From contig NZ_LUKF01000020.1 in assembly GCF_001592755.1 (NCBI RefSeq), positions 62,001-126,000 on the forward strand: 64,000 nt of DNA. The letters run 5' to 3'. A program made the translations under genes and the position numbers. Numbering within the stretch: the stretch's first letter is position 1; every line of letters starts with the position of its first letter. This stretch comes from Bdellovibrio bacteriovorus (GTDB lineage: Bacteria; Bdellovibrionota; Bdellovibrionia; Bdellovibrionales; Bdellovibrionaceae). Shown here in pieces: positions 19,641 to 30,241 of the stretch. The notes under the pieces are model-generated. The model made no database searches, was not told where the DNA came from, and saw only the letters and a program-made list of their open reading frames with translations.

Positions 19641-20414
19641 TTACTTCTTCAATGTTAGGCGCACAGGGCAATGATCGGATCCCATAACATCCGGCAGGTG
19701 ACTGACGGCCTTTAAACGGTCTGAGGCCTCTTTATTCACTAAGAAGTAGTCTAAGCGCCAACCTACATTTCTTTCACGGACTCCGGGACGATAGCTCCAC
19801 CATGTGTAGTGTCCTTCCCCTGGTTCAAATTTACGGAAGCTGTCGACCCACTCTAGCTTTTCAAGAAAGTGAGTCATCCAGGCGCGCTCTTCAGGCAGAA
19901 AGCCCGCGTTTTTGACATTGGTCTTTGGGTTTTTCAAATCAATCTCTTTATGGGCGATATTGAAGTCACCGCAGATAACAACCTCGCGACCTTTTTTGCG
20001 TAAAGCTTGTAAGCGCTTTTCCGCCGCCGCACAGAATTCCAATTTAAAAGGCAGGCGAGCGTGATCACGTTGGCTGTTGGGCCAATAACTATTCACCACG
20101 GTGACGGATCCAAAATCAGCTTCAAGCCACCGTCCTTCGCGATCAAATTTTTCAATGCCTAAGCCGCGGCGAACCGCATCGGGTTCTTTTTTGGAATAAA
20201 GTGCCAATCCTGAATAGCCCGGCTTTTCAGCGAAATTCCAAGTCGAGTGATAACGAGCTGGATGATAAAATGTTTCGTCCTCTTGGATGGCTTCTTCAGA
20301 AATTTTGATTTCTTGAAGGCAGACGATGTCAGCCTTTTCGTTTTCAAACCATTCACGAAAGTTTTTACGTTGAACCGAACGAAGACCGTTAACATTCCAT
20401 GTGATCAATTTCAT
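19641..20414 (-). CDS. xthA: Exodeoxyribonuclease III (AP endonuclease)
   Basis: 257 residues of the exonuclease III/APE1 fold. The enzyme incises DNA at abasic sites and trims 3' ends in base-excision repair. Signature residues are present: 'WNVNGLRS' with the metal-binding Asn, 'CLQEIKI' with the catalytic Glu (about 34), 'GDFNIAHKEIDL' (Asp/Asn about 152), 'GWRLDYFLV' and the C-terminal 'GSDHCPV' with the catalytic Asp-His. Length is standard. It is oriented with the LysR gene upstream, 71 bases away. Confidence 0.95.
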   Translation of the reverse strand: MKLITWNVNGLRSVQRKNFREWFENEKADIVCLQEIKISEEAIQEDETFYHPARYHSTWNFAEKPGYSGLALYSKKEPDAVRRGLGIEKFDREGRWLEADFGSVTVVNSYWPNSQRDHARLPFKLEFCAAAEKRLQALRKKGREVVICGDFNIAHKEIDLKNPKTNVKNAGFLPEERAWMTHFLEKLEWVDSFRKFEPGEGHYTWWSYRPGVRERNVGWRLDYFLVNKEASDRLKAVSHLPDVMGSDHCPVRLTLKK

Positions 20415-20485: not shown

Positions 20486-21385
20486 CTAGACGATATAGTC
20501 CCGCATGATTTCGCTCACCCAATCCATAAATACCTGAACACGCTTGGCCACGTGACGACGATGAGGATAAACGAGAGAGACCGGCATAGGCTCACTTTTT
20601 AAGGTCGGTAAAATCTCGATCAAGGATTTATTCTCTAGATACTCTTTTAAACCCGCTTTAGGGGCTTGAATAATTCCCAGTCCTGCTAGGCATGCCGACA
20701 GATAATTTTCGGCATTATTCACCGTGATCTGACTCCGCATTTTTTTGATCTGATACTTTTCTCCGTCGAAGTATTCAAAACCGTCAGGCTTCGCTCCGAG
20801 GGTTTGCACATAGTGGACCAGAAAGTGCTCTGATAAATCTTCCAGATTTTTAGGACGACCGTATTTTTTTATATAAAGGGGACTCACACAGTTTACGACC
20901 GTGAACTTTCCCAGAGGTCTTGCAATAAGTCCCGAATCCGTCAAATTTCCTACACGAATAACACAGTCAAAACCTTCGCGGACAAGGTCCACTCGACGAT
21001 CCGTGCTGCTTAATTCGATCTCAATACACGGGTGGGCTTTCAAAAATTCCGGAAGCCGCGGAACGATCAAATTTTTTGCTATACCTGTCGACATATCGAC
21101 ACGAATTCGTCCCGACAGGCGACCCGCGTCTTTCTTAAACAGCGAATCCAGTTCCTCAATATCCGCCAGAAGATCTTTGCATCGCTCATAGTAAGTCATT
21201 CCGTCTTGGGTCATCTGAACTCGACGGGTGGTGCGATGAAGAAGTCTGGTGCCCGTATCCGCCTCAAGCTGTTGGATGATATTAGAAATATGGGCCTTGG
21301 ACATTCCAAGGCTTTCTGCCGCTTTTACGAAGCTCGATAATTCGCTCACGCGCATGTAGACCTTCATAGCTTCTATACGATCCAT
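20486..21385 (-). CDS. LysR-family transcriptional regulator
   Basis: 299 residues. The N-terminal winged helix-turn-helix (about 1-60, 'FVKAAESLGMSKAHISNIIQQLE') is followed by a periplasmic-binding-protein-like effector domain (about 90-295). It belongs to the branch that typically controls a divergent oxidoreductase gene (inference from gene pairing). It is divergent from the SDR gene at 21502. A perfect palindrome at 21398-21416 lies 13 bases upstream of its start codon and is a likely operator for autoregulation and control of the SDR. The effector is unknown. Confidence 0.93.
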   Translation of the reverse strand: MDRIEAMKVYMRVSELSSFVKAAESLGMSKAHISNIIQQLEADTGTRLLHRTTRRVQMTQDGMTYYERCKDLLADIEELDSLFKKDAGRLSGRIRVDMSTGIAKNLIVPRLPEFLKAHPCIEIELSSTDRRVDLVREGFDCVIRVGNLTDSGLIARPLGKFTVVNCVSPLYIKKYGRPKNLEDLSEHFLVHYVQTLGAKPDGFEYFDGEKYQIKKMRSQITVNNAENYLSACLAGLGIIQAPKAGLKEYLENKSLIEILPTLKSEPMPVSLVYPHRRHVAKRVQVFMDWVSEIMRDYIV

Positions 21386-21397
21386 CTCATCCTCGAT

Positions 21398-21416
21398 TGT
21401 TCAGTAATAGTGAACA
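21398..21416. promoter_or_regulatory. Palindromic operator between lysR and SDR genes
   Basis: TGTTCA (21398-21403), seven bases, TGAACA (21411-21416) is a perfect inverted repeat within the 116-base divergent promoter region. It contains a T-N11-A core of the LysR-box type. It is close to the lysR start, as expected for negative autoregulation. Confidence 0.6.
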
Positions 21417-21501
21417 GTGTATCAAAAATATCGGTGTTTATCAATTATGGCAAACTTCCTAAAATAAAAATGTAACCAGGACTATTCAAAAGGAGTTTGT
21501 T

Positions 21502-22254
21502 ATGAAAATCGCAATTATCACTGGTGGCAGCCGAGGGTTGGGTAAGAATACCGCATTGAAGCTAGCTCAAAAAGGGACCGACGTAATCTTGACTTATCAT
21601 TCTAAGAAAGCCGAGGCAGACCAAGTCGTGGCCGAGATTGAAAGACAAGGACGTAAGGCCGTGGCCTTGCCTCTTAACGCTGGAGCGGTGGAGAGTTTTG
21701 AAGCCTTTGCCGTGGCAGTTCGTCAGGTTTTAAAAGAAAAATGGAATCGTACGGACTTTGACTTTCTTATTAACAATGCAGGAACGGCTCTTGAGGCTTC
21801 GATCCTGGAGACCACCGCCGAGGACTTCGATAAGTTGGTCAATGTTCATCTGAAAGGTCCTTTCTTTTTAACTCAAAAGCTTCTTCCCCTTATGAAAGAC
21901 GGCGGGCGCATTGTGAATATCTCTTCGGGGCTAGCTCGTTTCGCCTTACCAGGTAAAGCGGCTTATGCTTCGATGAAAGGCGCGATCGAAGTTCTGACTC
22001 GCTATATGGCGAAAGAATTCGGAGCCCGTGGCATCGCTGCCAATGTCGTAGCGCCAGGAGCCATTGAGACTGATTTTGGTGGGGGCGTGGTTCGGGATAA
22101 TCCTGAAGTAAATAAATTCATCGCATCCCAAACGGCCTTAGGAAGAGTCGGCGTTCCCGATGATATTGGGGGCGTGATTGCCTCCCTTCTTTCTGAAGAT
22201 AATGCCTGGATCAATGCTCAACGAATTGAAGCTTCCGGTGGGATGTTTCTTTAA
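21502..22254 (+). CDS. Short-chain dehydrogenase/reductase (SDR)
   Basis: 250 residues with the classical SDR layout: NAD(P)-binding 'TGGSRGLG' (about 8-15), 'NNAG' (about 91-94), catalytic Ser in 'ISSGLARF' (about 141) and Tyr-x-x-x-Lys in 'YASMK' (about 155-159), followed by 'APGAIETDF'. The Arg after the first strand region favours NADP(H) (inference). The substrate is unknown. It starts behind AAAAGGAG and is divergent from the LysR gene, its probable regulator. It ends exactly where the convergent gene at 22255 ends. Confidence 0.94.
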   Translation: MKIAIITGGSRGLGKNTALKLAQKGTDVILTYHSKKAEADQVVAEIERQGRKAVALPLNAGAVESFEAFAVAVRQVLKEKWNRTDFDFLINNAGTALEASILETTAEDFDKLVNVHLKGPFFLTQKLLPLMKDGGRIVNISSGLARFALPGKAAYASMKGAIEVLTRYMAKEFGARGIAANVVAPGAIETDFGGGVVRDNPEVNKFIASQTALGRVGVPDDIGGVIASLLSEDNAWINAQRIEASGGMFL

Positions 22255-22783: not shown

Positions 22784-22810
22784 GAAAGAATAAAGACGGG
22801 AAGTCCCGTC
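22784..22810 (-). terminator. Terminator of the four-gene operon
   Basis: On the minus strand GACGGG, ACTT, CCCGTC (22810 to 22795) is followed by TTTATTCTTTC. It begins eight bases after the dikinase stop codon and so closes the 22818-29500 operon. Confidence 0.75.
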
Positions 22811-22817
22811 CTCATTC

Positions 22818-25496
22818 TTATTCGTCCAAAATTTTAATTGTGCCGGCTTTAGCATCAATGCGAACGCGCATGCCGGACTTAATTCGTTTTGTTAATCCCG
22901 GGATGCTGACGATCGCCGGTATTCCCATTTCACGGGCGACAATGGCCGAGTGAGAAAGCAAACTTCCACGCTCTACTAAAAGACCCGAGATCGCCGGATA
23001 AAGAGGAACCCATCCTGGATCCGTGCGAGCTGTCACTAGAATCTCACCGTTCAGTTCCAAGTTATCACTTGGATTTAAGATGACCTTGACGACACCTTCA
23101 AGAACTCCTGGGCAGCACGGCAGACCTTTTAAATCATAGTCGCCAGATTCAGCGACTTGCGGAATTTCTTCTTTAATAAACGTGTTATCCCAATAAACAG
23201 CTCCGCGAGTCATCACGCGTGGGTCGGTCTCTTCACTGAATTGACCGTAGTCTTTTTTGCGAAGTTCGATAATGCCTTTTAAGTTGTACGAAGGCAGGGT
23301 GCCGTTGTAAATCCCGAAGACCTCCTCGATCGTTAGCCAGAAGATATCGCGAGGTTGTTCGAGCGCGCTCATCGTCGCCAGATCTTCCCCAATAGTTTGG
23401 AAAATCGTGCGGGCAATACCGTAAATACGGGTGCGGGCAAAGCGCGTGTTCTCGCGGTTTTTCACAGCTTTACGGGCGTGTTTCAGAACCCAGAAATAAA
23501 ATTTCTTTTTAAAGCCTGTCAGATGCGAAGCCACTTTGGCTTCGGCTTGAGCACGCAATGACTTTTCGTGAGAGTCATCGTGAATTTCAGTCTGACCTGA
23601 CTTCAAATAGTTTTTCAAACAGACAAAGAGATAACTTGGATCTGTTAGAAGATCGATCTCTTCAAGTTTCATCTCACTCATACAGCGGAAGCCGTACTTA
23701 TCGAGATAATCCAGAACCGACTTATAAAACTCTTGATAGGGCGACTGATTTAAGGCCTCAAGACCCTCTGCGGGGTCGATGGTTTCGATAAGTTTGCGCA
23801 AGTCAGGATTTTGCGCGGCTTTATTGGCTAAACGCAAAAGAGCCTTCGTCGGTTCGGCACTTTCAAGACCGCCTTCACCAGCTAAAAGATCATTTTGAAT
23901 GGTCGAATCCAAATCTTTCAACCACGTCGTCGTCAGTTTACGCAAAAGACCGAAGTGAACCATGCACAAGAAGTCATTGATGATCGGGGCTTTCCAGCGA
24001 CCCAACATATTTCGTTCAAGCTCCATGTAAATGCGAATCAGCTGGTCGCCACGCATGCGCTTAAGGGGAAGACTTCGGTACTTGTCATAGTCGCGATGGA
24101 AAGTCGCTAAAAAGTCATCCACCGTGCTTTGAATGGTGAAGTGATATTTTATGAAATTGAATCCTGTGATGGCTTTGCGGATGCGACCACTGAAAGTGTC
24201 CCACGAAGGGTGCGGTTTAATGCGATCCGCGATTTCTTCGCTGAGCGCTTCAGAAACTCCCATCATGGTTTCCATGAACTCACGGTTTTGTTTGAAACCG
24301 GGAAGCACGCCGACAAGCTTGTACCAGTTGAAAAGATTGTAGTAAACGCGACCGTTCAAAGATCCCAGCATGTAACCTAAGTAAGAGTCCATGTCTTTGA
24401 TGATTTCATTCGGTACACCTAAGACTTCACAGAACTGCACATACACGGCTTTATAGTTACGAAGAGCGAAACTAAAACTCAGTGGCGATGTCAAACCACC
24501 GTACGACTCGATGATATTTGAGTTGTCCCAAAGATTCGGATAGCCAATCAAATCAGCCTGTAACGTCGTCACGGGACGAGTTTGTAAAATATAGATCTTA
24601 CCACCTTCAATGGCCCATTCGATATCTTGCGGACGGTGATACTGTTCTTGAATTTTATGTCCAAGGCGATAGAGCTTAGAAAGCTCCTCTTGAGTCAAAG
24701 AAGCGGTGTTCACAAGATTGCTTGGAACAGGCAAAGTCGAACAATGACCCGATGAAGACTTCTTCATCATCTCTTTTTTCTCGACGACTTCTTCTTTTAG
24801 CAGTTTGCCGCTGTGTGCTTCCAGCCAGAAAGAATCCGCATCCAGGGTTCCTGACACCAGTCCTTCACCGACACCATAGACGGAAGAAACGACATAGCGA
24901 TCGATTTTCTTTTCGACCGGGTCACAGGTGAAAAGAACACCGGACTTATCCGGGTCAATCATGCGCTGTAGAACCACCGACACAGAAATTTTCTGAAGGT
25001 CAATGCCATTTTCCAAGCGATAGACCAAGCTTCGTTCGGAAAAAGCCGAAATCCAGCACTGACGAATGTATTTAAGAATATCTTCTTTGCCAGAGACATA
25101 AAGATAGCTTGAAAGCTGGCCCGCGAAAGAATGCGAAAGACTGTCTTCATCAGCGGCCGACGAACGCACGGAAAATACGTTGTTTGCGCCCAAATCTTTT
25201 AAGGCTTTATCCAGGGATTCTGAAAGGTTCTTAGAAAGATCGGTTTTTTCAAAGAGAGCCCGAACCTCCGCCTCGGCTTGCAGGGGAGTGAGTTCTTTCG
25301 CCGAAAGACGTTGCATGATCAGCGACAAGGTCGTTTTTACGGATGGCGACGCCAGAAACTCTTGGAAGAATCTTTTACCGAACACGACCCATTCGGGAAC
25401 GGGAAGTCCTGCTTGCGACATGAGGTAAAGATTAAAGCCTTTTCCTCCGGCTTCGTTTTTAGCAAAGAACAGTGTTGATTTCGGAGTTACAAGCAT
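22818..25496 (-). CDS. PEP-synthase/rifampin-phosphotransferase-like dikinase
   Basis: About 892 residues from ATG 25496, with GGAG nine bases before it; a longer GTG reading from 25511 is less likely. Residues 1-320 are the PPDK-type ATP-binding domain ('GGKGFNL' near 20, 'VRSSAADEDS' near 130, 'GVLFTCDP' near 190). A long helical middle domain of about 450 residues follows. The C terminus is the swivelling phosphohistidine domain with the catalytic His849 in SLLSHSAIVARE. There is no TIM barrel for PEP/pyruvate. This ATP-grasp/middle/His order is that of rifampin phosphotransferase, not PEP synthase. The acceptor is presumably a small molecule supplied by the neighbouring genes (inference). 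Confidence 0.85.
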   Translation of the reverse strand: MLVTPKSTLFFAKNEAGGKGFNLYLMSQAGLPVPEWVVFGKRFFQEFLASPSVKTTLSLIMQRLSAKELTPLQAEAEVRALFEKTDLSKNLSESLDKALKDLGANNVFSVRSSAADEDSLSHSFAGQLSSYLYVSGKEDILKYIRQCWISAFSERSLVYRLENGIDLQKISVSVVLQRMIDPDKSGVLFTCDPVEKKIDRYVVSSVYGVGEGLVSGTLDADSFWLEAHSGKLLKEEVVEKKEMMKKSSSGHCSTLPVPSNLVNTASLTQEELSKLYRLGHKIQEQYHRPQDIEWAIEGGKIYILQTRPVTTLQADLIGYPNLWDNSNIIESYGGLTSPLSFSFALRNYKAVYVQFCEVLGVPNEIIKDMDSYLGYMLGSLNGRVYYNLFNWYKLVGVLPGFKQNREFMETMMGVSEALSEEIADRIKPHPSWDTFSGRIRKAITGFNFIKYHFTIQSTVDDFLATFHRDYDKYRSLPLKRMRGDQLIRIYMELERNMLGRWKAPIINDFLCMVHFGLLRKLTTTWLKDLDSTIQNDLLAGEGGLESAEPTKALLRLANKAAQNPDLRKLIETIDPAEGLEALNQSPYQEFYKSVLDYLDKYGFRCMSEMKLEEIDLLTDPSYLFVCLKNYLKSGQTEIHDDSHEKSLRAQAEAKVASHLTGFKKKFYFWVLKHARKAVKNRENTRFARTRIYGIARTIFQTIGEDLATMSALEQPRDIFWLTIEEVFGIYNGTLPSYNLKGIIELRKKDYGQFSEETDPRVMTRGAVYWDNTFIKEEIPQVAESGDYDLKGLPCCPGVLEGVVKVILNPSDNLELNGEILVTARTDPGWVPLYPAISGLLVERGSLLSHSAIVAREMGIPAIVSIPGLTKRIKSGMRVRIDAKAGTIKILDE

Positions 25497-25498
25497 AG

Positions 25499-26362
25499 TT
25501 AGGATCTCCACATATAGATCACTAGGGCATAGTGAAGCAGCAAATAAACCCCAGAAATCGCGCGGAAGAACTGCGCGGCAGGGGTGGTTTTTTTAATAAT
25601 ATAAATCAAACTTAAAATCACATAAGCCGACAAAGAAACGAGCCAAATCCAGTGAGGCTGAAGGTAGTAAACAACACCCACTCCAAGAATCGCTTGGCTG
25701 AGTGAAAGGGCTAAAGCTCCTTTGTCCGTAAAGATATTGGAGTAAGAAGGCACGTGCGGTCTTTCCTCAGAGCTCGCGAAAGTTTTTCGCGCGAACTCAA
25801 AAAGATTGAAAAACGCCCAGTTCATAAAAATAAATATCAGTAGCGGCAAGGTGAGTTCTTGCGGATTCACACCCGTCATAGCGACACCACTAGAAAGTCC
25901 TAAGAGCACGCTCACAAAGGTGTGGGTCACGGCATAGGTCGTTAAGTGGGGACGTAGCGTCTCGCCAATGAAAAACTCTTCGTACATCAAAAGACTATAA
26001 CCAATGGCCGCAGCGTGAATCAGAAGAGAATAAACTCCTAAAGTGCTTGCCAGGCCCATCTCGAAAATAATTAAGAAAAGAAGCGCCACCTTCACTTGTC
26101 GGACCGTCAAAATCCCGCGCGCCAGCGGACGGGTGGGATTGACTTTCAGATCCACTTCATAGTCTTTGATCTCGTCAAAAAGACGCATGCGGAAAAAGAA
26201 AGAAAGCATCAAAAGGAAGACGCCAGCAAAGCGTCCCCAATTCCATTCCAGCCCCAGAGTGGAGGAAAAGAAAAGCCCGTTCGCCCATGAGAAAAGAAAT
26301 ATCATGGGCACATAAGAAGCCGGACTGAATCTTTCTTTAATTAAAATCCACCAATTAGCCAA
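25499..26362 (-). CDS. UbiA-family membrane prenyltransferase
   Basis: 287 residues, about eight to nine membrane segments. The first Asp-rich motif, 'RLFDEIKDYEVDLKVNPTRP' (around residue 60), is the UbiA signature D-x-x-x-D-x-x-x-D with the following 'NPTRPL.RG'. UbiA enzymes transfer a prenyl chain to an aromatic ring or other small acceptor at the inner membrane. The second motif is weaker ('FEFARKTFASSEERPH' near 185), so the acceptor may be atypical. It overlaps the ligase gene by eight bases and ends two bases before the dikinase start, implying translational coupling. Confidence 0.83.
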   Translation of the reverse strand: MANWWILIKERFSPASYVPMIFLFSWANGLFFSSTLGLEWNWGRFAGVFLLMLSFFFRMRLFDEIKDYEVDLKVNPTRPLARGILTVRQVKVALLFLIIFEMGLASTLGVYSLLIHAAAIGYSLLMYEEFFIGETLRPHLTTYAVTHTFVSVLLGLSSGVAMTGVNPQELTLPLLIFIFMNWAFFNLFEFARKTFASSEERPHVPSYSNIFTDKGALALSLSQAILGVGVVYYLQPHWIWLVSLSAYVILSLIYIIKKTTPAAQFFRAISGVYLLLHYALVIYMWRS

Positions 26363-28763
26363 TAATCACCTCGGGATCATTCAATTGATCGCGCAGAACT
26401 TTGTATTCCACCTTCGAGTGATGGCGAGGATCCATCGGGATCTTTTTAACGAACTTAATCTGATCGACGGGAATTTTATTCTTTTCAAAAACACGGCGGA
26501 TTTCTTTTTTCGCCGCTTCAAAGTCAAAGGACTTGCTGTCGATCTCCTGTTTTAACTCGACAACGGCATAAGTCGCCTGACCCAGCGAAGAATCCGGTAC
26601 TCCTAAGAAAGCACAGCGATAAGTAAAATCAAAACGCTTTAAAAGAACTTCTGAGCGCACTGGGAAGTAGTACTTTCCAGCTCTTTCGATCGCGTTATTG
26701 ACCCGACCCACGATCCAAAGATTTTTGTCAGAATCGATGTAGGCCAAGTCCCCCGTGCGATGCCATACCCGGTCTTTTTCATCTAAGATCTTAGTCGTTT
26801 TAAAAGCATCGGGATTATTATAGTAATCGCGGCAGACGTGGTCACCGGTACAGATAAATTCACCGATCTCTCCATTCGGCACTTCGATTTTCTGCCATGG
26901 AGAATCTTTCAAATCCACAGGGCCATCTTTGATACGGATGAACTTGAAGTCGATGTCTTCACTGATGTGGCCGACGTTAACACCTTCTTCGATAATTTCG
27001 GGATCGGTGATCTTGCTTTCTTTTAGCATGTCGCGGCCCTCGATGTGAGCCATCGGTTCTGCTTCTGTCGAACCGTATAAAATCCAAAGCTCAGTTTGTG
27101 GGGCAATGTCATAGAAAGCTTTGACGTCATCTTTAGAAATAGGCGCACCACCGGTCACGACACGACGAAGTCCCTTTAAGATGATATTCTTTTCTTTGCA
27201 GTAACGAGCTAATCCCACAAGCATGCTTGGAGACAATGTCGTACAGTTGATGTTTTCATTGAGAATCTGACACGCCAAAATAGCCGAATCTCTTTCAGAC
27301 GGAGCTGCTAAATCCAGAGCGGGTAATACCGTCGTCACACCCGAAGCCAAGTTATTCAAACTGAAGATCGGGAAGGCTGGCATGTCTTTGTCGACTTCCG
27401 TATAAGGAATCACATGCGAAAGGGCGTGATGTTGCGCTGACAGAAATCGATGTGTGCGGTTAGCTCCTTTCGGTTTCCCCGTTGAGCCGGTCGTAAATGT
27501 AATCAAAGCCGTGAACTCGCTTTCTACAGCAGCAATAGGCGAAGGATCTTTTTTCAAAAGCTCCTCGAAGCGGTGAGTGCACTTATCACCCGGCCCATAC
27601 ATAATTCGAATAGGCATGGATTGAAATTCGGGAACCTGGTTTACAAGTTCAAAAGCCATATTGAAACTAATCATGGCTTTGGGGCCAACACATTCCGCCG
27701 ATGCTCCCAAGTGATGACTGCGGGCCCAAGAATCCAGAAATACGGCGATCGCACCAATGCGTTGTACGGCAAACATGGCCGTATACATATCCAGGCTCAT
27801 TGGTAAGAAGATGATGACGCGATCTCCTTTTTGAATACCGATATCTAAAAGTCCGCGTGCGAAAGAGTTAATTCTTGCGGCAAAATGTTTGTAAGTAATT
27901 TGATCATGCTTCAAAGGGGTGTGAGGATTTCCATCCCACTTCGCTAAGGTCTCACGCGAAACCCACGAAAGCGCCACGCGGTCCGGGAATTCGCGTAAGT
28001 GTTTTTCCATGTAGCTGATCACGTTGTTGCGCTCATCAGCGCCCGGATAGTAACCGATTTTTTCAGAAGGGTGGGACATTCCTGGTTTCTCCTGCAAAAC
28101 TTTTAAGATGTCTTGAATATGCGACCATAGAAGGCTGTGACCAGCTTTGGCCGTTTTCACGATTTTGTGTGCGGGGTATTGAGTGACGATTTGGTTTTGA
28201 ATCGACTCGTCCGTGATTTTGTCGTCACTTCCATAGACTACGGTGACGGGTGTCTTGACGACGTCTTTTGAAGTCCACGGGTTGTCCTGCATTTTCATTT
28301 TATTGAAGGCCGTTTTCTGCCAAAGATTCCAATCAAAACGCTCGGTGATCTTTTGTAAATATGGATGATCCGCGAGGGACCAAGGATGAAAAAGATCTTT
28401 AAGGAACGAGTCTTTGGATTTAGCAAAGTTCGATTTAATAAGGGCGTCCCCTAATACCGGAAGCTTTAATAAAGCGCCAGCGATAGGTGAAATCTCACGC
28501 TCGGGTTTCAAATAGGGTGTGACCAGAATCACTTGTTCGACGTATTTTTCGTAAGCGGGCAAGGTTTTTAAAATACGATAGCCACCCCACGAATGCCCTA
28601 AAAGAATTTTCTTCGATGAATCTTGAGTCAGAAGATTCAACCATTCATCACTGTCGGCTTTCACCGCGTGAAGGTTGTAACCTAAAGGTTGAACGGCCTC
28701 TTTAAGAAGAGTCCAATCTTCGGGATGGCCGGGGTTTCCGTGCAAAGCAATGATGGTTTTCAT
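26355..28763 (-). CDS. Alpha/beta-hydrolase fused to OleC-like AMP-dependent ligase
   Basis: 802 residues. Residues 1-225 are an alpha/beta hydrolase: nucleophile Ser58 in GHSWGG, acid Asp180/181 and His209. Residues 235-800 are an acyl-adenylating enzyme with TFTTGSTGKPKG (about 420), YGSTEAEP, WHRTGDLAYID and GRVNNAIERAGKYYFP. 'AFPIFSLNNLASGVTTVLP' and 'PMDPRHHSKVEYKVLR', in place of the usual C-terminal Lys motif, resemble OleC beta-lactone synthetases, which act beside an alpha/beta-hydrolase (OleB). An internal ATG at 28079 (Met229) follows AGGAG and could yield a free ligase. It starts with an ATGA overlap after the formyltransferase gene. Confidence 0.85.
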   Translation of the reverse strand: MKTIIALHGNPGHPEDWTLLKEAVQPLGYNLHAVKADSDEWLNLLTQDSSKKILLGHSWGGYRILKTLPAYEKYVEQVILVTPYLKPEREISPIAGALLKLPVLGDALIKSNFAKSKDSFLKDLFHPWSLADHPYLQKITERFDWNLWQKTAFNKMKMQDNPWTSKDVVKTPVTVVYGSDDKITDESIQNQIVTQYPAHKIVKTAKAGHSLLWSHIQDILKVLQEKPGMSHPSEKIGYYPGADERNNVISYMEKHLREFPDRVALSWVSRETLAKWDGNPHTPLKHDQITYKHFAARINSFARGLLDIGIQKGDRVIIFLPMSLDMYTAMFAVQRIGAIAVFLDSWARSHHLGASAECVGPKAMISFNMAFELVNQVPEFQSMPIRIMYGPGDKCTHRFEELLKKDPSPIAAVESEFTALITFTTGSTGKPKGANRTHRFLSAQHHALSHVIPYTEVDKDMPAFPIFSLNNLASGVTTVLPALDLAAPSERDSAILACQILNENINCTTLSPSMLVGLARYCKEKNIILKGLRRVVTGGAPISKDDVKAFYDIAPQTELWILYGSTEAEPMAHIEGRDMLKESKITDPEIIEEGVNVGHISEDIDFKFIRIKDGPVDLKDSPWQKIEVPNGEIGEFICTGDHVCRDYYNNPDAFKTTKILDEKDRVWHRTGDLAYIDSDKNLWIVGRVNNAIERAGKYYFPVRSEVLLKRFDFTYRCAFLGVPDSSLGQATYAVVELKQEIDSKSFDFEAAKKEIRRVFEKNKIPVDQIKFVKKIPMDPRHHSKVEYKVLRDQLNDPEVIIG

Positions 28764-29500
28764 ATCTTTATTCCTCGCAGGCGTAGCTTGTAAAAATCGA
28801 TAAGACCGGGATTGGAGCGATACACGGTCTGGTCTGTTTTAGAATTTTCAATACCTTGGATTTTCTGAGTGCGTGCAATTTCTTGCAGCACTTCCGTCGC
28901 CGCGGCCGTTTCCAGCCGCGCGGCATTTTTTAATGACTCCAAATAATTCTTTTTATTGGAAGGTACTTCGACGACTTTCAGTAGTGAGCCGTCATCTAGT
29001 TTTGAAGTCATTTCATGGATAGAGAAACCAAAAGAGGTTCCGAAAAGATGCGCCCAAAAGTCACACATCAATCCGCGCTGGTGGGGAAGCAAACCATGAT
29101 GAATATTGATGCAGCCGATTTTGGGAATGCTTAAAAGACGCTTCTTAAAAAAAGAACGGGTTCGCGCATTTAAAATCACATCGGGCTCTAATGAAGAAAG
29201 AAACTTTATTGTTTCTTCAGAATTGATATCTTTAATAACCCAGACTTTTTTACCTAAGGCTTCATAACGTTTTTGTTTGCGCGCTAACGAGTTATCCAAG
29301 CTGTTTTTAAGAAGATGCCAACCCATGAGCGGGCCAGCGCCAGAAAGCATCAAAAGAAACGCTTTGAGGTAAATGTCGGCACTGCGGTTATCGATAACAA
29401 CAAGCCCTTGCACGTAAGGGTTGTTGGCCAAGCCGAGTGTTAAGTCATCATAGTTATCCGGCACGAATGTCACGGCCGAAGTGATAACTAGGGTTTTCAT
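28760..29500 (-). CDS. Formyltransferase-fold protein
   Basis: 246 residues resembling the catalytic domain of methionyl-tRNA, GAR and sugar formyltransferases. The expected Asn-His-Asp triad can be placed: 'CINIHHGLLPHQRG' (Asn132, His134) and 'KLDDGSLL' (Asp169/170). The C-terminal oligonucleotide-binding domain of tRNA formyltransferase is absent. The N-terminal part has a long hydrophobic segment (about 44-62) unusual for the family. A 10-formyl-THF-dependent formylation, or a related transfer, of a small molecule is plausible; the substrate is unknown. It is the first gene of the operon and is coupled to the fused ligase by a four-base ATGA overlap. Confidence 0.8.
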   Translation of the reverse strand: MKTLVITSAVTFVPDNYDDLTLGLANNPYVQGLVVIDNRSADIYLKAFLLMLSGAGPLMGWHLLKNSLDNSLARKQKRYEALGKKVWVIKDINSEETIKFLSSLEPDVILNARTRSFFKKRLLSIPKIGCINIHHGLLPHQRGLMCDFWAHLFGTSFGFSIHEMTSKLDDGSLLKVVEVPSNKKNYLESLKNAARLETAAATEVLQEIARTQKIQGIENSKTDQTVYRSNPGLIDFYKLRLRGIKI

Positions 29501-29612
29501 GAAACTACCTCGATGCGTTCCAGAAGTTAAACAAACTGTGTTCCTGGACTTATATCGACAGATTTCGACCCGACCAAAAGAGAGTCGGCGTATTTACCGA
29601 CAAAGGTCTAGC

Positions 29613-29636
29613 TGTCTCATATCTAAGATTGAGACA
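29613..29636. promoter_or_regulatory. Palindrome upstream of the four-gene operon
   Basis: TGTCTCA (29613-29619) is mirrored by TGAGACA (29630-29636), with a further ATCT/AGAT inner match offset by one base. It lies about 115 bases upstream of the first operon gene and 36 bases downstream of the neighbouring YIP1 gene. It may be an operator; no regulator is encoded nearby. Confidence 0.4.
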
Positions 29637-29671: not shown

Positions 29672-30241
29672 TTAACCGAGTCTTTCCAAACGTGAAATAT
29701 CAATACGATTCCAAAGCCAAAGGATGAAGACGATAGCAAAAAGAATTGTGACTAAGCGAAGCGCGCGACGCTTGTCCATCTGGAAATTTTCAGTCAGGCC
29801 GACGGCCATGAGTAATGCCGTGAAAGCAAAACCTACTAAAGTGATCGGCGGAATGATTTCGGAACCCACTTGGAAGACGAAGAAAGGAATATTAGCAAAA
29901 AGAATCAGTGTAAAAATCTTGCGCAAAGAGCAAGTGCGCTTTTCATAAACTTGGAAGTAGTAATAAATAAACAGAGCCCCGATAAAAGTCGTCGTCACGC
30001 CAACAAGGGGAGAGATAATAAATCCACCCATCAAACGGAAGAAGTTCGGTGGTACAAGCCCGGTCAAAACCCCTGAGGCCATCGAAAGAACTACTAAGGT
30101 CACGATCAATGTTGTCCAATTCCAGTCCGGCAAAGTTTTGATTTTTTCAATCGGGTGACGAAGGTAGTTCACGATGTAACGAAGAACTTCTTTGGCATTG
30201 TCGGAGTGAGCACCGGGAGTAACGTCTCTGTAGTCAGTCAT
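29672..30241 (-). CDS. YIP1-family integral membrane protein
   Basis: 189 residues with five predicted membrane helices after a soluble N-terminal stretch. The 'NYLRHPIEKIKTLPDW' lead-in and the 'ISPLVGVTTTFIGALFIYYYF' helix are typical of bacterial Yip1-domain proteins, whose function is not established. The start is ATG 30241. It is transcribed in the same direction as the four-gene operon but separated from it by 171 bases that hold a palindrome. Confidence 0.75.
   Translation of the reverse strand: MTDYRDVTPGAHSDNAKEVLRYIVNYLRHPIEKIKTLPDWNWTTLIVTLVVLSMASGVLTGLVPPNFFRLMGGFIISPLVGVTTTFIGALFIYYYFQVYEKRTCSLRKIFTLILFANIPFFVFQVGSEIIPPITLVGFAFTALLMAVGLTENFQMDKRRALRLVTILFAIVFILWLWNRIDISRLERLG

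Follow-up and report, generated by a model that had tools for sequence, protein, structure and literature searches.

An operon of Bdellovibrio bacteriovorus as the exchangeable cassette of a larger pathway, probably for a lipid-type product

A stretch of 64,000 nucleotides from Bdellovibrio bacteriovorus, referred to here as the window, carries on its minus strand four tightly packed genes for a formyltransferase-fold protein (FMT), an alpha/beta hydrolase fused to an OleC-like AMP-forming ligase (HYD and LIG), a UbiA-fold membrane protein (UBI) and a dikinase-like protein (PPS). What does such a set of genes make, and does it make it alone? A sequence-only reading had proposed that the four could jointly build and activate one membrane-associated metabolite, and saw no quinone, olefin or polyketide core enzyme beside them. 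Comparison with related genomes gave good support to another arrangement, in which the operon is the exchangeable half, or cassette, of a larger pathway of roughly 12 genes. As the best explanation of the whole set, we lean towards the synthesis and export of an amphiphilic, amino-acid-headed lipid. A membrane-associated metabolite is the best reading here, too.

Conservation of the operon and its partner genes

LIG-UBI-PPS was found to be conserved in 14 of the 24 genomes sampled from the genus, and 2 more carried a diverged version. In the class sample of 144 genomes, the protein search with UBI was positive for 35, and nearly all of those with readable flanks showed a LIG-type ligase and PPS beside UBI in the same order, which was kept even at 22-30% identity. 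An alignment search with PPS against named genomes yielded 80 loci, with taxon labels as given in the records, mostly metagenome-assembled genomes (MAGs). These loci belonged to Bdellovibrionota (Pseudobdellovibrionaceae, Bacteriovoracaceae, Halobacteriovoraceae and Oligoflexia) and to Verrucomicrobiota/Akkermansiaceae, Planctomycetota, Kiritimatiellota, Chloroflexota, Fibrobacterota, Myxococcota and others. The order FMT-LIG-UBI-PPS was present in Bdellovibrionota (Bacteriovoracales too), Verrucomicrobiota, Planctomycetota, a deltaproteobacterial MAG and a betaproteobacterial MAG, and LIG-UBI-PPS in more phyla than that. At least six bacterial phyla keep the core of the operon as a block. This retention supports the proposal that the four genes act together; a scattering of the genes among related genomes, named beforehand as the sign that it was wrong, was not what the neighbourhood comparison gave.

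The operon has recurrent partners. A DAGK_cat lipid kinase, a short-chain dehydrogenase/reductase (SDR) of the NAD_binding_4 family, a reductase of about 690 amino acids (AAR) and a DUF3419 protein are accompanied by export-type genes for an ABC ATPase, an FtsX/LolCE-like permease, a PF17131 LolA_like protein and a beta-barrel-like protein. They lie beside the operon in most loci, including that of G004 (G-codes denote genomes, with G000 for the window's own, and L-codes denote loci; coordinates are those of the window unless stated). In the window's genome, all partner genes are located apart from the operon, on contig C16 (C16:431771-453159). In most Bdellovibrio, FMT is preceded by genes for a Ser/Thr kinase with a PEGA tail and for a ligase resembling FadD. 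Neither the completeness of the four-gene set nor the lack of a core enzyme is supported by these neighbourhoods: most relatives have, next to the operon, a fatty-acyl reductase, an SDR, an aminocarboxypropyl transferase of the BtaA family, a lipid kinase and genes for export. The link to DUF3419 was close: within the genus, UBI, PPS and DUF3419 had identical presence and absence (16 genomes with, 8 without), and within the class, PPS and DUF3419 occurred together in 30 genomes, alone in 5 and 7, and neither in 102 (Fisher 3e-19, phylogeny ignored).

Exchange of modules and the displaced cassette

Exchange between modules was counted over 104 PPS loci, some of them near-duplicates. Type A cassettes carry FMT and the hydrolase, and type B cassettes a GNAT acyltransferase. 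FMT and GNAT were each present in 39 loci and never together, and HYD accompanied FMT 33 times and GNAT 0 times. Likewise, AAR was found in 41 loci and HMG-CoA reductase in 9, with both in none; at 323-385 bits, the HMG-CoA reductase homologues are genuine. In G005, the AAR at the same chromosomal site is 76% identical to that of the window's genome, while PPS is only 41% and UBI 22% identical; for G008, the values are 78% for AAR and 80% for PPS. On the PPS tree, the A and B labels are explained by two changes only, and in L079 and L082 type-B LIG, UBI and GNAT go with a PPS nested within the type-A clade. Such exchanges speak for equivalent roles of the A and B cassettes, both serving one backbone.

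The C16 site expected to hold the cassette has an MFS gene instead (G000 C16:435553-436716, equal to L150:10553-11716). This MFS is 68% identical to an MFS within the type-B cassette of G024, is kept in G006 and is lost in G012; it is likely a remnant of cassette replacement. The two genes that flank the operon, one at 19641-20414 and the other, yip, at 29672-30241, are widely separated in six other Bdellovibrio genomes, indicating that the cassette of G000, G006 and G012 sits at a rearrangement junction, off the usual site. By one simple reading, a type-B cassette would have been lost at the C16 site and a type-A cassette gained elsewhere. Just downstream of the operon, a LysR-type regulator is divergent from a short-chain dehydrogenase (20486-22254), a pair absent from that place in G012.

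The cassette proteins and the systems they resemble

The positions of the operon genes and of the terminator are listed in Table 1. The four genes are joined by a 4-base overlap, an 8-base overlap and a 2-base gap, just as had been described, and the family assignments made from the letters agree with the Pfam matches.

Table 1. Features of the operon in the window
Feature	Position	Strand	Product or nature	Evidence
FMT	28760-29500	-	formyltransferase-fold protein, 246 amino acids	Pfam Formyl_trans_N 3e-12
HYD-LIG	26355-28763	-	fused gene	alpha/beta hydrolase + AMP-binding
HYD	28080-28763	-	Ser alpha/beta hydrolase, N-terminal domain of the fusion with the ligase	Pfam Hydrolase_4/Abhydrolase
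LIG	26355-28079	-	OleC-like AMP-forming ligase domain	Pfam AMP-binding 3e-46
UBI	25499-26362	-	membrane UbiA-fold prenyltransferase-like protein, TTG start	Pfam UbiA
PPS	22818-25496	-	ATP-grasp/phosphohistidine dikinase-like protein, Rph/PigC domain layout, ATG start	Pfam PPDK_N + PEP-utilizers
Terminator	22786-22819	no strand	intrinsic terminator hairpin at operon end	inverted repeat, z = -6.7

For PPS, an alternative GTG start is open 15 bases upstream of the ATG. The terminator claimed to close the operon proved real (-22 kcal/mol), none of 200 shuffles being equally good. The palindrome claimed upstream (29613-29636) does exist but has no special status: its z of -1.75 is at chance level, 70 similar 7-nt inverted repeats occur in the window, and in the near relative G012 its arms are not intact, so that it was rejected as an operator. 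A sigma-70 promoter scan was uninformative, its hits being rarer than in shuffles, and PADLOC gave no match that would point to anti-phage defence.

The catalytic residues Asn132, His134 and Asp169 of FMT were present in 38/38 aligned block sequences, in agreement with a formyltransferase of the Formyl_trans_N family. Among the aligned rows having a letter at the position, HYD keeps Ser58 in 34/34 and His209 in 35/35; in some relatives (L048, L078, L083, L089) it is a separate gene. The fusion of HYD to an OleC-like ligase recalls OleBC, and the A10 motif of LIG is related to that of OleC, reading PRHHSKVEY near the C-terminus in type A and RHRARID in most type-B members. The nucleophile of the beta-lactone decarboxylase OleB is Asp, whereas that of HYD is Ser in all 34 rows. 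LIG scored 214 bits against a cut-off of 900 and 209 against 850 with the OleC beta-lactone synthetase models, and its 364 bits with PRK09274 were also under the cut-off; no OleA was noticed. On account of the OleC scores and the Ser nucleophile, membership in the Ole pathway was rejected.

The predicted model of UBI (pLDDT 93) has the all-helical UbiA fold. Its top fold match was the archaeal digeranylgeranylglyceryl phosphate (DGGGP) synthase 6m31 (Z 20.8, 4.2 Å over 269 residues), with rows 1-4 of the matches scoring close together, and a DGGGP synthase was also the top PDB match by sequence (7.7e-9). Where UbiA proteins have a first Asp-rich motif NDxxDxxxD, UBI has D63-E64-x-K66-D67-x3-D71, with D63, K66, D67 and D71 invariant in 36 sequences. 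In contrast, the position of the second motif, DxxxD, holds an invariant E189-x-x-R192-K193, the identity to the archaeal enzymes is 13-17%, and neither a geranylgeranylglyceryl phosphate synthase nor a glycerol-1-phosphate dehydrogenase was noticed in the loci. As judged from fold and sequence similarity, UBI may be a relative of DGGGP synthase.

PPS (897 amino acids; 1327 bits against NF004881) carries the phospho-accepting His in 99/99 aligned sequences, as do members of the ATP-grasp/phosphohistidine dikinase superfamily. Its only Pfam domains are PPDK_N (19-318) and PEP-utilizers (821-890), a layout like that of Rph and PigC. Both domains are common to phosphoenolpyruvate (PEP) synthase as well, but the C-terminal PEP/pyruvate-binding barrel of that enzyme is absent from PPS by Pfam, and a PEP synthase was therefore rejected. 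PPS also stays far under all curated cut-offs for Rph (366 against 999 and 243 against 1700 bits), on which ground a role as rifampin-resistance phosphotransferase was rejected, and for PigC/RedH (377 against 1300 and 387 against 1350 bits).

In betaine lipid synthesis, BtaB trimethylates the free amine. The DUF3419 protein of the window's genome belongs to the BtaA family (PF11899, 203 bits against a cut-off of 28.2), and the clusters share with BtaAB this transferase, a linked N-modifying enzyme and a lipid context. The BtaA-like proteins of G075 and G093 have a BtaB-like methyltransferase downstream; the pathway clusters have FMT or GNAT instead, with no BtaB beside DUF3419, and add LIG, UBI, PPS, AAR and export genes. 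At L177:871-4729 (G129), a ketoacyl-synthase-III-like protein, a BtaB-like methyltransferase, DUF3419 and an SDR are encoded, with no PPS or UbiA.

The reductase AAR matched acyl-acyl carrier protein (ACP) reductase and carmabin TAD folds over residues 325-710 (Z about 31). The match to 6jzq (Z 31, 3.5 Å over 329 residues) indicates an acyl-ACP reductase, and Cys641, within an ACLAET motif, was invariant in 26 sequences; we take the equivalent Cys to be catalytic. For the N-terminal 300 or so residues, the whole-chain search gave no clear fold match, this domain alone not having been searched. At L046:10775-13513, a class-III aminotransferase is fused to an AAR-like domain, the reverse of the domain order in PigE, beside GNAT and PPS-like genes.

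The proposed product and its rivals

The combined gene set probably makes and exports one lipid-type product, since the PigE-like reductase AAR, DAGK_cat, DUF3419, the LolCE-like FtsX and LolA_like proteins all point to lipid and UBI is nearest to an archaeal lipid synthase. FadD and AAR would convert a fatty acid to the aldehyde, which the SDR would reduce; the alcohol from AAR and SDR, or from HMG-CoA reductase, could then be phosphorylated by the YegS/DagK-like kinase. DUF3419, as a BtaA relative with no BtaB adjacent, would transfer the 3-amino-3-carboxypropyl group of S-adenosylmethionine to a lipid hydroxyl, and the free amine would be capped with formyl by FMT (type A) or with acyl by GNAT (type B). 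LIG may adenylate the carboxyl group for coupling or ring closure. PPS may use ATP (through AMP and Pi) to supply a phosphorylated intermediate, and UBI, in the manner of archaeal DGGGP synthase, may form a lipid ether or a C-prenyl bond, the two together attaching a second chain. Delivery to the outer membrane would fall to LolCDE/LolA-like proteins and the beta-barrel. For the LIG and UBI/PPS steps, order and substrates are guesses, and UBI and PPS have the least certain roles. The most likely product would be a lipid or amphiphile of the homoserine type, N-formylated (type A) or N-acylated (type B) and destined for the outer membrane, N-capped homoserine chemistry as such being put forward tentatively.

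Several observations weigh against this lipid scheme. The DUF3419 proteins score about 200 bits, roughly half of the 380 or so of methyltransferase-linked BtaA proteins in the same class, suggesting that the substrate may differ from that of BtaA, and some loci have no DUF3419 within the sequence examined. The altered second motif of UBI counts on the same side, and many loci lie on short contigs of MAGs, with taxon labels that may be wrong. The HMG-CoA reductase of other phyla could mean a mevalonate/isoprenoid rather than a fatty-alcohol product.

This last point leads to an isoprenoid route, in which the reductase/kinase part would give a phosphorylated alcohol, PPS its diphosphate, and UBI would prenylate an acceptor, by a logic like that of plant VTE5/VTE6/VTE2. 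The genuine HMG-CoA reductase that replaces AAR in some phyla stands beside a membrane protein with dolichol/phytol-kinase-like motifs, and at L054:3367-5784 it carries a fused, weakly APH-like kinase domain and neighbours PPS, LIG, UBI and GNAT; the kinship of UBI to DGGGP synthase fits as well. The acyl-ACP reductase fold of AAR, however, suggests long acyl chains, the clusters hold no genes for an aromatic or quinone acceptor, and the role of DUF3419 is left unexplained, so that we regard this route, which overlaps with the lipid scheme, as improbable. Linked to HMG-CoA reductase-type clusters are membrane proteins at L106:2778-4145 and L141:5051-6415 that have no Pfam match and carry RKxxHxxG-type motifs recalling dolichol and phytol kinases.

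AAR also matches the N-terminal half of PigE (4.5e-48) and PDB 4ppm. With the PigC/RedH scores of PPS and the P450 and MFS genes within some clusters, this would suit a prodigiosin- or tambjamine-like pathway, in which the reductase gives a fatty aldehyde and PPS, like PigC/RedH, condenses an activated carbonyl with a second block at the expense of ATP, the product being a diffusible compound and no membrane lipid. We consider this unlikely: the PigC/RedH scores are similar to those for Rph and other models, the LolCDE/LolA-like export set points to lipid, and we know of no counterpart of UBI in prodigiosin pathways.

The lipstatin lst cluster combines a formyltransferase, which acts on an attached amino acid, with an OleC-like ligase and an SDR. 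A lipstatin-like product, with LIG closing a beta-lactone from an SDR-reduced beta-hydroxy acid and FMT formylating the attached amino acid, would share these three proteins (the RHxxK motif of LIG being OleC-like and the SDR matching OleD models weakly), but is still less probable, since LIG stays under the OleC cut-offs, type B has no FMT and mostly Arg for the motif Lys, UbiA, PPS and DUF3419 are extra, and no ketoacyl synthase or nonribosomal peptide synthetase was labelled or noticed in the clusters, in which no search was aimed at them.

The statement that no described pathway has this set held in the open-access papers, where nothing relevant was found on UbiA with DUF3419, UbiA with PEP synthase, or a Bdellovibrio betaine lipid. 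Bd3170, a Tudor transposon mutant (cited in PMC2797640), seemed close by numbering and was considered as a predation-gene lead. The predicted operon of ftsZ ends in Bd3187 (PMC12448681), and in G004 ftsZ is located at 3.11 Mb, which places it some 40 kb away from the operon; Bd3170 is therefore probably outside the cluster, and the lead was dropped. The main text of a transposon-sequencing paper (PMC6561027) does not mention Bd315x-318x tags.

In outline, the gene set resembles aminolipid synthesis; the membership tests place it in none of the BtaAB, Ole, prodigiosin and PEP-synthase systems. What was an orphan four-gene operon can now be described as a defined pathway with about a dozen genes, whose modules are clearly delimited and whose core occurs in at least six phyla. 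The database label 'PEP synthase' is wrong for PPS, and DUF3419 with no BtaB marks a pathway separate from that of betaine lipids. The lipid scheme, followed to its end, might even describe a class of bacterial membrane lipid not known before, an ether lipid of the homoserine type with an N-formyl or N-acyl group, made with a relative of BtaA, a UbiA protein like DGGGP synthase and a dikinase like Rph, with its own Lol-like export and interchangeable capping and tail modules, and spread between phyla by gene transfer; we offer this as a possibility short of an even chance. The pathway is now open to deletion and lipidomics in a genetically tractable organism, and its product is probably destined for the outer membrane of predatory Bdellovibrio and of distant relatives.

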